A stretch of DNA of 64,000 bases from Thermoproteus uzoniensis 768-20 (GTDB lineage Archaea > Thermoproteota > Thermoprotei > Thermoproteales > Thermoproteaceae), in the NCBI RefSeq assembly GCF_000193375.1, contig NC_015315.1, forward strand, positions 310,001-374,000, written 5' to 3'. Below the pieces are notes generated by a model, which worked only from the letters and a program-made list of their open reading frames with translations, was not told where the DNA came from and searched no databases. Positions 16,805-20,984 of the stretch are shown in pieces. The stretch's first letter is position 1. Each line of letters starts with the position of its first letter. A program made the position numbers and the translations under genes.

Positions 16805-17572
16805 GTGATTAAATTACAGACGCACATCCCGCCAATGGGCGAGCCGTCTCCATGGCCTTGGGATCTCCCGTTAGTAAATTTATATGGGGATATTGTCCTG
16901 ACCTATATGTACTACGACGTCCCGTTTGTGCCGACGCCTGAGGTCGTCGTCAGGCGCATGTTGCAGTTGGCCAGAGTAAGGCCCGGCGAGGTCCTCTACG
17001 ACCTCGGCAGCGGCGACGGCAGAATAGTGATAATGGCCGCCAAGGAGTTCGGGGCATACGCCTACGGCATAGAGATACGTAAGGATCTCTACGAACAGAG
17101 CACGGCAAAGATTAGGGATCTGGGCTTGGAGGGGCGGGCCAGGATAATAAATACTAACTTCTTCGACGCCGATATCTCGGACGCCGACGTCGTCACGATG
17201 TATCTGCTCACCTCGGTCAACGAGCGGCTGAAGCCGAAGCTTGAGAAGGAGCTGAGGCCGGGGACCAGAGTCGTCAGCCACGACTTCGAGGTATCCGGGT
17301 GGAGGCCTGTAGTCGTCGAGGAGGTGTACGAGGAGTGGCGCTCCCACAAGATATACCTCTACAAGATTCCGGGCAAGGAGGTCCCGATACCCTCGGGCAA
17401 GACCGCCCCACTGGAGGATCCGTTCACCAGGCAAGTCATGGCTTTGGTCGACGGAAACAACTCCATAGAGGACATAGCCGTGAAGCTGAACACAACGCCG
17501 CGCGAGATCAGAAACGCGTTGAGGAAGCTTATAGACGCCGGCCTTGTCGAGGGGATAAAGACCATTAGATGA
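16805..17572 (+). CDS. aKMT-like protein lysine methyltransferase with C-terminal winged helix
   Basis: Residues about 38-185 match the crenarchaeal lysine methyltransferase aKMT (which methylates Cren7 and many other proteins in Sulfolobus): FVPTPEVVVRRML, motif I YDLGSGDGRI, and the family block VTMYLLTSVNERLKPKLEKE followed by PGTRVVSHDF. Unlike the roughly 160-residue Sulfolobus enzyme it has a 37-residue N-terminal extension and a C-terminal winged-helix domain (about 205-255) with the pattern IEDIAVKLNTTPREIRNAL. The start GTG is the most upstream; ATG 16835 is an alternative. Overlaps dys by ATGA. Confidence 0.85.
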   Translation: MIKLQTHIPPMGEPSPWPWDLPLVNLYGDIVLTYMYYDVPFVPTPEVVVRRMLQLARVRPGEVLYDLGSGDGRIVIMAAKEFGAYAYGIEIRKDLYEQSTAKIRDLGLEGRARIINTNFFDADISDADVVTMYLLTSVNERLKPKLEKELRPGTRVVSHDFEVSGWRPVVVEEVYEEWRSHKIYLYKIPGKEVPIPSGKTAPLEDPFTRQVMALVDGNNSIEDIAVKLNTTPREIRNALRKLIDAGLVEGIKTIR

Positions 17573-18447
17573 AAGAAGTCATAGACGTCTATAGAAAGAT
17601 CGGCGGATTCCAAGCCCTCCATGTAGTGGAGGCCGCCGATATTCTTAAGGAGGCAGTAAGGAACGCAGATCTGCGCTTCTTCTCATTCACAGCGAACTTG
17701 GTGGCGACAGGTCTTAGGGAGATTATCGCCGACGCGATCCGGAGGGGGCTCTTCAACGTAGTGGTGACCACAGCTGGAGCGCTCGACCACGATATAGCCA
17801 AGGCTGAAGGCGCTAGGTACGTGCCGGCGTCCTTCGACCTAGACGACGTAGATCTAGCCGACAAGGGCTATCACAGATTGGGCAATCTGGTGCTTAGGAG
17901 GGATGAGTACGGCCCTTATGTCGAGCGTTTCGTATTCAGGGCGTTGGATTCGTTGGAGAAAGATAGGGTAGGCACCTTCGAGCTGGCCGAGCATTTCGGC
18001 AAGTTGATGCCCGAGAGCTCCATCCTCGGAGCCGCGGCTAGAGCCGGCGTCAAGGTGTTTGTGCCGGGCATAGTGGACGGAGCCGTCGGCACGGCTATAT
18101 TGACCTACAACGACGTGCAGAGGGTGAAGAGGGGCGGCAGACGTATAGTAGTCGACGTGTTGAGGGACGAGGAGGAGCTGAGGGATCTCGTGGCGTCCGC
18201 CAAAAGCCTAGCGGCGCTCATCGTGGGGGGCGGCATATCTAAACACCACGTGATCTGGTGGGCGCAATTCAAGGGCGGGCTGGACTACGTAGTGTACATA
18301 ACTACGGCCACGGAGTACGACGGCTCCTTGAGCGGCGCGAGGCCTAGAGAGGCCATAACCTGGGGCAAAGTTAAACGCAACGCGAAGTCGGTCCACATAA
18401 TGGCGGACGCCACGTTGGTCCTCCCGATACTCCTAGGTTACTTATAA
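17569..18447 (+). CDS. dys: deoxyhypusine synthase
   Basis: NAD-dependent enzyme (292 residues) that transfers the aminobutyl group of spermidine to a lysine of aIF5A. The Schiff-base lysine lies in GGGISKHH; the NAD-binding VTTAGALDHD and the substrate motif PGIVDGAVGTA are present, as is the C-terminal TATEYDGSLSGA with the catalytic acidic pocket. Coupled to the aKMT-like gene by an ATGA overlap; the GlcNAc-1-P transferase promoter lies in its last codons. Confidence 0.96.
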   Translation: MKEVIDVYRKIGGFQALHVVEAADILKEAVRNADLRFFSFTANLVATGLREIIADAIRRGLFNVVVTTAGALDHDIAKAEGARYVPASFDLDDVDLADKGYHRLGNLVLRRDEYGPYVERFVFRALDSLEKDRVGTFELAEHFGKLMPESSILGAAARAGVKVFVPGIVDGAVGTAILTYNDVQRVKRGGRRIVVDVLRDEEELRDLVASAKSLAALIVGGGISKHHVIWWAQFKGGLDYVVYITTATEYDGSLSGARPREAITWGKVKRNAKSVHIMADATLVLPILLGYL

Positions 18448-18449
18448 CT
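18440..18449 (+). promoter_or_regulatory. TATA box of the GlcNAc-1-P transferase/GTPase cassette
   Basis: ACTTATAACT overlapping the dys stop, 19-28 bases upstream of the ATG at 18468. It gives the cassette its own, probably leaderless, transcript. Confidence 0.55.
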
Positions 18450-18467
18450 ACCCCTCCTCTTCCGCCC

Positions 18468-19388
18468 ATGCTACAGATAGTCGCGATAGCCGCCGCCTTC
18501 GCGGCAGGAGTGGCTCTGGGGCCGGCGTGGTTGCGCTACCAGAGCGCCAGAGGTTTGGTGTCGCTCGACGTCTACAAGGGCAGGCAGGGCGTGCCTAAGG
18601 CGGGAGGGCTTATTGCTATGATCGCCGGTATTGTGGGCCTCTCCATCCTGTCCCTCTTCGACTTTAGGCTGTGGTACGTCGTCGCGTTGGCCGGCGTTGT
18701 GGGGCTAGTCGGGTTGCTCGACGACGTGTACGACGTGAACGAGCTCGTGAGGGTCGCAGTCCCCCTTCTAGCGGCCGTGGCCCTCTACTTCGCCGTGAGG
18801 CTACGCATGACGTTGCCCTTCATGGGCACCTTCTACAGCCCTGCCTGGCTGGCGGTGCTCGCAATCCCCATAATGACGAACGCGTATAACATGTTGGACC
18901 CCGTCAACGGATTCCTGCCGCTGTCCAACGCCATAATCGGCGCGTCTCTGGCCGCGGGCGCGCTCCTCAGAGGGAACGTCGAGGCCTCCTACGCCTTCGC
19001 CGTGCACGTGGCGGCTTCCCTAGCGCTCTTCGTCTACAACCGCTATCCAGCGAGGGCCTTCAACGGCAATGTGGGTAGCTACTTCCTAGGCGCCGAGATC
19101 GCCACGTTGGCGGCCCTCTACAACATGGTGCCCCAGCTCGTCTTCGCGTCTATGCCTTATATAGTCAACGGCGTCCTCATTATATTCTCGGCGCGCGGCA
19201 TCAGGGGCAGAAACAAAATAGGCCGGCCCACCGTTCTGGTCGACGGAAAGGTCGTGCAAAACTGCGACTCGAATATTCTGAGCCTGGTGCGCCTCCTGGT
19301 TGGGGACGGCGCCTTGGGCGAGTACGAGATATTTAAGCGCCTAGTCCTCCTCACGGCCATAACGTCGTTGGCCTCGGTGGCTATATGA
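18468..19388 (+). CDS. polyprenyl-phosphate GlcNAc-1-phosphate transferase-like membrane enzyme (GT4)
   Basis: A 306-residue polytopic protein of the MraY/WecA/Alg7 family. Hallmarks: GLLDDVYDV with the catalytic Asp pair, NAYNMLDPVNG (the NxxNxxD motif) and FNGNVGSYFLG in the position of the bacterial FxGDxGS. It should start the dolichol-linked N-glycan by transferring GlcNAc-1-P or a similar sugar, as AglH does. About ten hydrophobic segments. It overlaps the small membrane-protein gene by ATGA, and GTPase genes follow in the same run. Confidence 0.87.
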   Translation: MLQIVAIAAAFAAGVALGPAWLRYQSARGLVSLDVYKGRQGVPKAGGLIAMIAGIVGLSILSLFDFRLWYVVALAGVVGLVGLLDDVYDVNELVRVAVPLLAAVALYFAVRLRMTLPFMGTFYSPAWLAVLAIPIMTNAYNMLDPVNGFLPLSNAIIGASLAAGALLRGNVEASYAFAVHVAASLALFVYNRYPARAFNGNVGSYFLGAEIATLAALYNMVPQLVFASMPYIVNGVLIIFSARGIRGRNKIGRPTVLVDGKVVQNCDSNILSLVRLLVGDGALGEYEIFKRLVLLTAITSLASVAI

Positions 19389-19678
19389 AGAGCGCCTTGG
19401 CGGTCGTGTTGTTCTCGTTCGCGCTTCTCCTAGCATATCTCTATCTCGGAGGGCTCCTTCTAGGATATCTAAGGGTCAGACCTCTGCCGTATGTAAACGT
19501 CGGCGACTTTATGGCAGTTGCTTTAATCCTACTATACGGATATGCCGTCTACTTCGTCGGGCAGATCGTGGCGAAGAGGCAGTGCGAGCGTGAAGGACGT
19601 GGAGATCCTGGCAGCTATATTGACCGGCCGAGGCGAGCCTCTCTACGACAAGATAAAGAAGATAGAGGCAGAAGTTAG
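19385..19678 (+). CDS. small two-helix membrane protein
   Basis: A 97-residue frame with two strong membrane segments (about residues 5-27 and 38-62) followed by a charged tail. The start is fixed by ATGA overlap with the glycosyltransferase. The tail after about residue 69 overlaps a second frame (19590-19721) that looks more protein-like, so the true C terminus may be only the open end of this frame. No family recognised. Likely a membrane partner of the GTPase or the transferase, by position. Confidence 0.6.
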   Translation: MKSALAVVLFSFALLLAYLYLGGLLLGYLRVRPLPYVNVGDFMAVALILLYGYAVYFVGQIVAKRQCEREGRGDPGSYIDRPRRASLRQDKEDRGRS

Positions 19679-19721
19679 AAAGTTAGAGTTATTAGTAGAT
19701 AGACTGCTGGGTGATTTGTGA
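19590..19721 (+). CDS. 43-residue coiled-coil microprotein before the small GTPase
   Basis: A GTG-initiated frame of 43 codons: a short hydrophobic lead (ILAAIL) and then a Lys/Glu/Leu heptad-like helix (DKIKKIEAEVRKLELL). Its TGA overlaps the GTG of the GTPase gene as GTGA (19718-19721), the coupling used throughout this window, which is the main reason to call it real. It overlaps the 3' part of the membrane-protein frame by 89 bases in another frame. It could tether or regulate the GTPase. Confidence 0.6.
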   Translation: MKDVEILAAILTGRGEPLYDKIKKIEAEVRKLELLVDRLLGDL

Positions 19722-20203
19722 AGCGAGTGGTATGGGCTGTCCTCGGCGTTGGAGGCGTCGGCAAGACCACCTACATATATAGGCTTTTGGGCCTCTCCTT
19801 GAGGCCCCGAGTGACTTTGAGGCCGGGCATATACAGATACTACTACGGCGACTACGAGATGGACGTCATAGACGTGCCGGGCCAGCTGGCGCGCGAAGTC
19901 GCTCTGAACTTCAGCAGAATGTGGTCGTTCTACGTCGACCTCCTGGCATATATGTACGACGTGACCGACCCCTCCTCGTTGAGGGCCATAGCGGACATAC
20001 ACAGCGCGTTGCTCGACGCAGGCCTTAAGCCGTTTCGGAAAGTCATACTTATAGGCAATAAGAGGGATCTTGCTGAAGAGATCGGCACGCTTATAGAGGG
20101 CGACGAAATGGCCCAAGCCATAGGGGCCGGCAAGATCTACTACATATCGGCCCTCAAGGATCCGCCTAACGAGTTGATAAGGCCTATCCTCGAAAACTTA
20201 TAA
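19718..20203 (+). CDS. small Ras-superfamily GTPase, Arf/SR-beta-like
   Basis: A 161-residue GTPase with G1 GVGGVGKTT (10-18), G3 DVPGQ (52-56), G4 NKRD (114-117) and G5 SAL (144-146). The DxxGQ form of G3 and compact size resemble Arf, SR-beta and Rag/MglA-type GTPases. Crenarchaeal proteins of this sort have no assigned function. It is coupled to the coiled-coil microprotein upstream, which follows a membrane protein and an N-glycan priming enzyme, so action at the membrane is a reasonable inference. The 3' end overlaps the convergent gene by 20 bases. Confidence 0.85.
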   Translation: MKRVVWAVLGVGGVGKTTYIYRLLGLSLRPRVTLRPGIYRYYYGDYEMDVIDVPGQLAREVALNFSRMWSFYVDLLAYMYDVTDPSSLRAIADIHSALLDAGLKPFRKVILIGNKRDLAEEIGTLIEGDEMAQAIGAGKIYYISALKDPPNELIRPILENL

Positions 20204-20984
20204 TGCAGATCTCCTCGTCGTTGTGGATTATCTGGCCCCCCACGTCCTTCACGACCTGATCACAGGTCGGCGGAGTTCCTAGGCCGAGCGCCTCGTTCAC
20301 GAGCGAGGCAAGCTCGCCGAGGACACCGTTTATATATACATATATAACTTCCTCGGCAATGCCGCTTAATTCTTTTAAATTAATATTTCTATGACATACT
20401 AGCGCAGTATTAAAATTACCATATTTATATTTAATAAACTTTATATCGGTAGAGGGCTCCAGCGCTATGAAGACCGCCGGCGCCAAGAACGACGACATGG
20501 GGGAAGCCATGACGGGCAAAAGGGATAGACGCTCGCTCTCTATGTCCAACACGTCTTGAAAATCGTCGACTATCACCAGATCCCGGCCCGCCTGCGCCGA
20601 GAGCTCTGACGAGAATCCGCACGGCAGAAAGCCGGCGACTAAGGTGAGGCCTCCCCAGGGGAGGATCTCGGCCGCCATACGTATTCTGATGTTCTGGAAG
20701 ATGTATGTAAACGAGTGTATAAGGGCTGGGTTGTGCTCTATCGACTTGCCTAACAGATACGGAACTATGATGTCGTCAACAACTCTGGCCACCACGGGAT
20801 CTCCCCTGTCGGGGGGCAACTTGCCGGTCCTTATGTACGTATCCCCCCTCTTGATGAAGTACCCCAGACGCGCCAAGATCGAGTACAGCCTCTCTAGCCT
20901 GTTGTCTGGCTTAATCGCGGCGTTCATGAGCGCCAGCCTTGCGAAGTTGCTGCTGAGCACCCCGACCTCGACTTGATAACTCAC
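20184..20984 (-). CDS. unknown protein convergent with the GTPase
   Basis: A 266-residue soluble protein I do not recognise. It has a helical N-terminal 120 residues, a central SAQAGRDLVIVDDF strand-turn that resembles a nucleotide-fold strand, and a C-terminal helical half. No membrane segment or clear catalytic motif. An AT-rich pocket (20328-20450) encodes an Ile/Lys/Asn-rich stretch. It faces the GTPase and the two share 20 bases, so their transcripts are mutually antisense at the 3' ends. Confidence 0.6.
   Translation of the reverse strand: MSYQVEVGVLSSNFARLALMNAAIKPDNRLERLYSILARLGYFIKRGDTYIRTGKLPPDRGDPVVARVVDDIIVPYLLGKSIEHNPALIHSFTYIFQNIRIRMAAEILPWGGLTLVAGFLPCGFSSELSAQAGRDLVIVDDFQDVLDIESERLSLLPVMASPMSSFLAPAVFIALEPSTDIKFIKYKYGNFNTALVCHRNINLKELSGIAEEVIYVYINGVLGELASLVNEALGLGTPPTCDQVVKDVGGQIIHNDEEICIISFRG

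Follow-up and report, generated by a model that had tools for sequence, protein, structure and literature searches.

What is a small GTPase doing in the same gene row as a predicted glycan-priming enzyme? The question is raised by a locus of Thermoproteus uzoniensis 768-20, analyzed here within a window of 64,000 nucleotides (contig NC_015315.1, forward-strand positions 310,001 to 374,000) from the complete genome of 1,936,063 bp. A preliminary description, made from the sequence alone, had reported four coupled genes encoding a GlcNAc-1-phosphate transferase-like enzyme (GT4), a two-helix membrane protein (2TM), a 43-codon coiled-coil microprotein and a small GTPase, with a gene of no assigned function (P5) converging on the last of these. 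All of these genes were located as described; GT4 and 2TM share 4 nt, as do microprotein and GTPase. Such an arrangement points to a GTP switch that controls or makes use of the glycan-priming step, although it is no proof of one.

The row was compared across genomes whose genus labels (g1, Thermoproteus; g3, Pyrobaculum) were set by matches to named relatives, the close ones being Thermoproteus sp. CP80, UBA157, Pyrobaculum oguniense and P. sp. WP30. GT4, 2TM, microprotein and GTPase follow one another in the same order in five Thermoproteus and nine Pyrobaculum genomes, with both 4-nt overlaps in every one, and this repetition excludes chance. Neighborhood conservation, which the preliminary description had proposed to check, is thus seen well beyond this genome. 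A tenth Pyrobaculum genome (G018) carries GT4, 2TM, the microprotein and then the first 24 GTPase residues, up to the contig end. GT4 and 2TM stand without microprotein and GTPase at the locus in one further Pyrobaculum genome (G017) and in two genomes of a third genus (g2; G006 and G008); in G004 the contig stops after 2TM, and this genome was left out of the microprotein/GTPase presence count. In family f2, a weak 2TM match lies behind GT4 (E = 0.003 at locus L098, above 0.1 at the others), and the methyltransferase and deoxyhypusine synthase genes found ahead of GT4 also recur in some genomes (L061-L063). Because GT4 and 2TM occur without the other two genes, and because f2 shares the weak 2TM match and the upstream genes, GT4-2TM looks, from gene content, like the older unit, and the microprotein and GTPase look to have been gained, or lost, as a pair. 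At one f2 locus (L062, 2866-3048), CTP synthase is separated from the small membrane protein that follows GT4 by a coiled-coil-like frame of 60 codons, which showed no match to the microprotein in profile searches.

The GTPase (161 residues) retains all G1-G5 motifs in the alignment (GVGGVGKTT, T33, DVPGQ with the catalytic Gln, NKRD, SA) and a G-domain fold by Foldseek, its best solved relatives being Rab3, Rheb and Rap. It had been called Arf/SR-beta-like, a label that holds loosely, in that the authors who described the Rup GTPases regard them as related to Arf/Sar/SRbeta (PMC4316618). The Pfam profile above cut-off, however, is Ras (E = 2.7e-6), whereas Arf (E = 3e-4, 20.8 bits versus 22.3) and SRPRB (E = 0.21) fall below it. 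Identity as SR-beta was rejected on the SRPRB score and the lack of a hydrophobic membrane anchor ahead of strand 1, and identity as Arf on the profile score and on a predicted model that opens directly with strand 1, without an N-terminal amphipathic helix. An MglA/MglB system was likewise rejected, as no Roadblock match was obtained for P0001, P0002, P0005 or the P5 alignment. Judged against the published description, the sequence fits Rup Group 2, which is restricted to a few Crenarchaeota, measures about 160 amino acids and reaches up to six copies per genome (PMC4316618). As of the 2014 survey of Wuichet and Sogaard-Andersen, no Rup GTPase had been experimentally characterized, and Group 2 neighborhoods contained no conserved proteins (PMC4316618).

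A search limited to Thermoproteota returned matches to the GTPase family in 15 of 300 genomes, all of family f1; searches widened to the class and phylum brought up nothing strong beyond that family. Complete Pyrobaculum genomes carry four to six copies and Thermoproteus one; in the tree, the cassette GTPases of both genera lie close together with moderate support (84/75), with clade D inside. P5 accompanies these GTPases repeatedly. Its Pyrobaculum homolog is 34-39% identical and, wherever present, runs in the same direction as the GTPase and overlaps it by 4 nt, making a five-gene operon, while in Thermoproteus the gene is inverted. The convergent arrangement first reported therefore holds for Thermoproteus and not for Pyrobaculum, and the neighbor is not incidental. 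A P5 paralog (E about 1e-65) lies directly beside a second GTPase clade in seven of eight Pyrobaculum genomes, and about 27 kb away in the remaining one (G014). P5 matches were found in 16 of 81 genomes, and all 16 also carry this GTPase family, a co-occurrence that is not an independent statistic because the genomes are related. Elsewhere, GTPase paralogs at two loci (L082, L085) adjoin large ATPases with weak STAND/AAA matches, and those at two others (L087, L089) come after a dual-specificity-phosphatase-like gene, with a Pfam match for L089. At L084 and L093, two small genes carrying a PCG motif like that of P5 flank another paralog; the best of them reached a profile E of 3.6e-4, and the others were not significant.

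By profile and motifs (DVYK for DxxK, DDVYD for DDxxD/N and NAYN for NxxN in protein P0004), GT4 is AglH-like and is predicted to be the priming enzyme of surface-glycan assembly; the AglH motifs were taken from PMC5222938. The third position of DDxxD is lost in Pyrobaculum. Among the genomes of the class with any match, 58 of 59 have a single one, the gene of the remaining genome being fragmented, which makes GT4 the sole member of its family in these genomes. At the F-x-G-D site, whose Asp binds Mg in DPAGT1 and MraY, all Thermoproteaceae sequences in which the motif was found read FNGN (Asp to Asn), as do the f2 proteins; DPAGT1 has Asp, and the other families of the class have either letter (loci L042-L116 inspected). 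The N-glycan of Pyrobaculum calidifontis is assembled on dolichyl pyrophosphate (PMC5222938), as expected given an AglH-type start. Since the first sugar of P. calidifontis N-glycans is a 2,3-di-N-acetylated glucose and Agl24 is missing from Thermoproteales (PMC8993221), the sugar donor of GT4 may be other than plain UDP-GlcNAc.

Substitution rates show purifying selection on the microprotein frame. Over the 36 codons past the 2TM stop, dN/dS in Pyrobaculum is 0.13, versus 1.2 and 1.7 in the two shifted frames; for Thermoproteus the values are 0.3-0.5, versus 1.0 in the 2TM frame. The Pyrobaculum profile retrieved one Thermoproteus copy (E = 2.6e-4 among 11,432 segments), and it is position, phase and this weak match taken together that argue for homology between the genera. 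The C-terminal 22 residues of the microprotein are more amphipathic than shuffled versions. A relationship to BLOC1_2 was rejected (Pfam E = 0.017, below cut-off) and read as generic coiled-coil similarity.

The reading that we favor, tentatively and at somewhat below an even chance, is that a GTP-switch module of microprotein, Rup Group 2 GTPase and P5 became joined to an AglH/2TM unit responsible for priming the dolichol-linked glycan. It draws on the conserved order and overlaps, the five preserved GTPase motifs, the purifying selection on the microprotein, the repeated pairing of P5 with GTPases, and the joint absence of microprotein and GTPase at loci that keep GT4 and 2TM. AglH and 2TM would form a membrane complex; the GTPase, lacking an anchor of its own, would be recruited to it by the microprotein's amphipathic helix; P5 would act as its effector or as a GTPase-activating or exchange partner, and GTP binding would then set the activity or position of glycan priming. 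The "tether" and "GTP-controlled membrane process" of the preliminary description are likewise things we infer, and a functional link between the switch and lipid-linked glycan priming is about as tentative as the favored reading itself. A bolder version, in which a Ras-family GTPase gates the first dolichol-linked glycan step, the microprotein serves as its receptor or adaptor and the methyltransferase-like P5 is a new class of partner for several Rup Group 2 GTPases, is rather unlikely.

Several observations weigh against the favored reading. The larger order, kept in the 11 genomes compared, runs methyltransferase, deoxyhypusine synthase, GT4, 2TM, microprotein, GTPase, P5 and HAD phosphatase, with P5 absent from one of them (G015), in which the GTPase frame also ends early, at 144 residues. 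With a deoxyhypusine synthase and a methyltransferase in the operon, co-transcription need not mean one pathway, and membership alone is no proof of a glycan role. Priming can do without the GTPase, given that GT4 and 2TM also occur where it is absent, and P5-GTPase pairs away from any glycan gene tie P5 to the GTPase and not to glycans. Confidence in the predicted P5 model, too, is moderate, with a mean pLDDT of 73.8 and values below 50 for residues 125-170. Of the proposal first made, the conserved cassette with priming enzyme, membrane protein and microprotein is supported, and the surface-glycan link is weakened by the separability of GT4/2TM and by the deoxyhypusine synthase.

It is nearly as likely that microprotein, GTPase and P5 serve another process, such as signaling, cell shape or stress, and merely share an old housekeeping operon: the operon mixes unrelated functions, and other GTPase paralogs adjoin P5 paralogs, STAND-like ATPases or dual-specificity phosphatases and no glycan gene. 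A separate promoter is also conceivable. The sequence TAGAGTTATTAGT is the only invariant run of at least 11 nt over 2TM-microprotein-GTPase in the five Thermoproteus genomes, and holds two TTA leucine codons, TTA making up 6.6% of leucine codons in nine nearby genes; it may be a candidate internal promoter element for the GTPase. A scan for sigma-70-type promoters and terminators, whose coverage does not extend to archaeal promoters, returned nothing. Against such a passenger role, the module lies directly behind GT4-2TM, with start and stop codons overlapping, in two genera between which GT4 identity is only about 55%. The five-gene operon and its recurring partner gene offer a concrete handle on Rup Group 2 function and revise the 2014 picture of a group without conserved neighbors; the link to dolichol-linked glycan priming, if true, would connect a small GTPase with N-glycosylation in a prokaryote. 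As the preliminary description had supposed, no precedent turned up: the literature searched holds no description of a cassette in which a GTPase is combined with glycan-priming enzyme, membrane protein and helical microprotein.

P5 might instead be an active O-methyltransferase acting on a glycan, lipid or protein under GTPase control. The predicted model begins with a winged helix and continues into a Rossmann-like region, and its top Foldseek matches are S-adenosylmethionine (SAM) O-methyltransferases (best E = 1.8e-5). The TM-scores, however, are only about 0.3-0.5, and part of the model is of low confidence; no Pfam match rises above cut-off, and the site that we judge to be SAM motif I, VAGFLPCGFSSEL (VAGFLPCGFSS in alignment A1), lacks the usual acidic-GxGxG. 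P5 is better described as having a methyltransferase-like predicted fold with a degenerate motif I, and catalytic activity appears improbable.

The extents of 2TM and the microprotein differ from those first given. The gene and the two helices of 2TM are present, but the full 97-codon length is not conserved: the conserved part is the first ~72 codons, most relatives stop near codon 72 (alignment A3), and the tail in this genome overlaps the microprotein. Cys67 (19583-19585), just past helix 2, is invariant in the aligned 2TM proteins and is visible too in genomes without the microprotein. The 43-codon start of the microprotein (GTG 19590) did not survive comparison, being ACG in L002 and CTA in L005; the sole start common to all five Thermoproteus genomes is ATG 19542, so that 59 codons are likelier there, while in Pyrobaculum a GTG start gives 47-48 codons. 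A frameshift that makes the frame a C-terminal part of 2TM has in its favor that the frame begins within 2TM, without exception at +1, and that its Thermoproteus start is not firmly placed. This reading was rejected as very improbable, since an in-frame stop closes the frame two codons ahead of its GTG start in eight of nine Pyrobaculum genomes, and 2TM stands without it in G017, G006 and G008.

The features of the locus are collected in Table 1. For the 11-genome synteny, short 2TM and microprotein genes unlisted by BLAST were taken from the comparison of gene order and overlaps. NCBIfam has no name for 2TM, the microprotein or P5.

Table 1. Features of the GTPase locus, in window coordinates.
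Feature	Position	Strand	Basis or remark
SAM methyltransferase, C-terminal winged helix, operon gene 1	16805..17572	+	Pfam Methyltransf_31/CMAS; syntenic in 11/11 genomes compared
Deoxyhypusine synthase, 4-nt overlap with preceding methyltransferase gene	17569..18447	+	Pfam DS E = 2.3e-93; synteny
GT4 (AglH-like)	18468..19388	+	Pfam Glycos_transf_4 E = 3.4e-24; best solved relative DPAGT1
Two-helix membrane protein (2TM)	19385..19678	+	Alignment A3
Helical (coiled-coil-like) microprotein, probably 59 codons	19542..19721	+	Sole start common to five Thermoproteus genomes
13-nt invariant run TAGAGTTATTAGT	19684..19696	+	22-34 nt ahead of GTPase start
Small GTPase, complete G1-G5 motifs including DVPGQ, NKRD	19718..20203	+	Fits Rup Group 2
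P5, winged helix + Rossmann (O-methyltransferase-like) predicted fold	20184..20984	-	Recurring GTPase neighbor; operon-terminal in Pyrobaculum, inverted here

Among known systems, the haloarchaeal ArvA-ArvB-ArvC system resembles the cassette in pairing an archaeal small GTPase with partner genes in one operon, and ArvA drives vesicle formation (PMC10927574). The partner families differ: membership was rejected because no DUF2073 (ArvB) or DUF2072 (ArvC) match was found in the cassette genes tested, and the published survey puts ArvA homologs in just 8 of 970 Thermoproteota genomes, each of them from Korarchaeota (PMC10927574), which makes a comparable vesicle-forming system very improbable. 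MglA-MglB shares a small GTPase with an adjoining partner gene, but the cassette has no Roadblock/MglB match. Bacterial Rup Group 1 systems also pair the GTPase gene with genes for a coiled-coil and a membrane protein (PMC4316618); there, however, the latter is of OmpA type, the output is c-di-GMP or a kinase, the GTPase lacks the catalytic Gln and no glycan enzyme is involved. With AglH and Alg7-DPAGT1, the locus shares the Pfam GT4 family, the DxxK, DD and NxxN motifs and, in Pyrobaculum, a dolichyl pyrophosphate glycan (PMC5222938); it differs in the Asn that replaces the F-x-G-D Asp in the Thermoproteaceae inspected and in its GTPase, no small-GTPase operon having been found described for AglH. 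The closest likeness is to Rup Group 2 (PMC4316618), in crenarchaeal restriction, length, DxxGQ in G3, copy number and lack of MglB coupling, but where the survey saw no conserved neighbors, the GTPase here sits in a conserved operon with P5 as a recurring neighbor.

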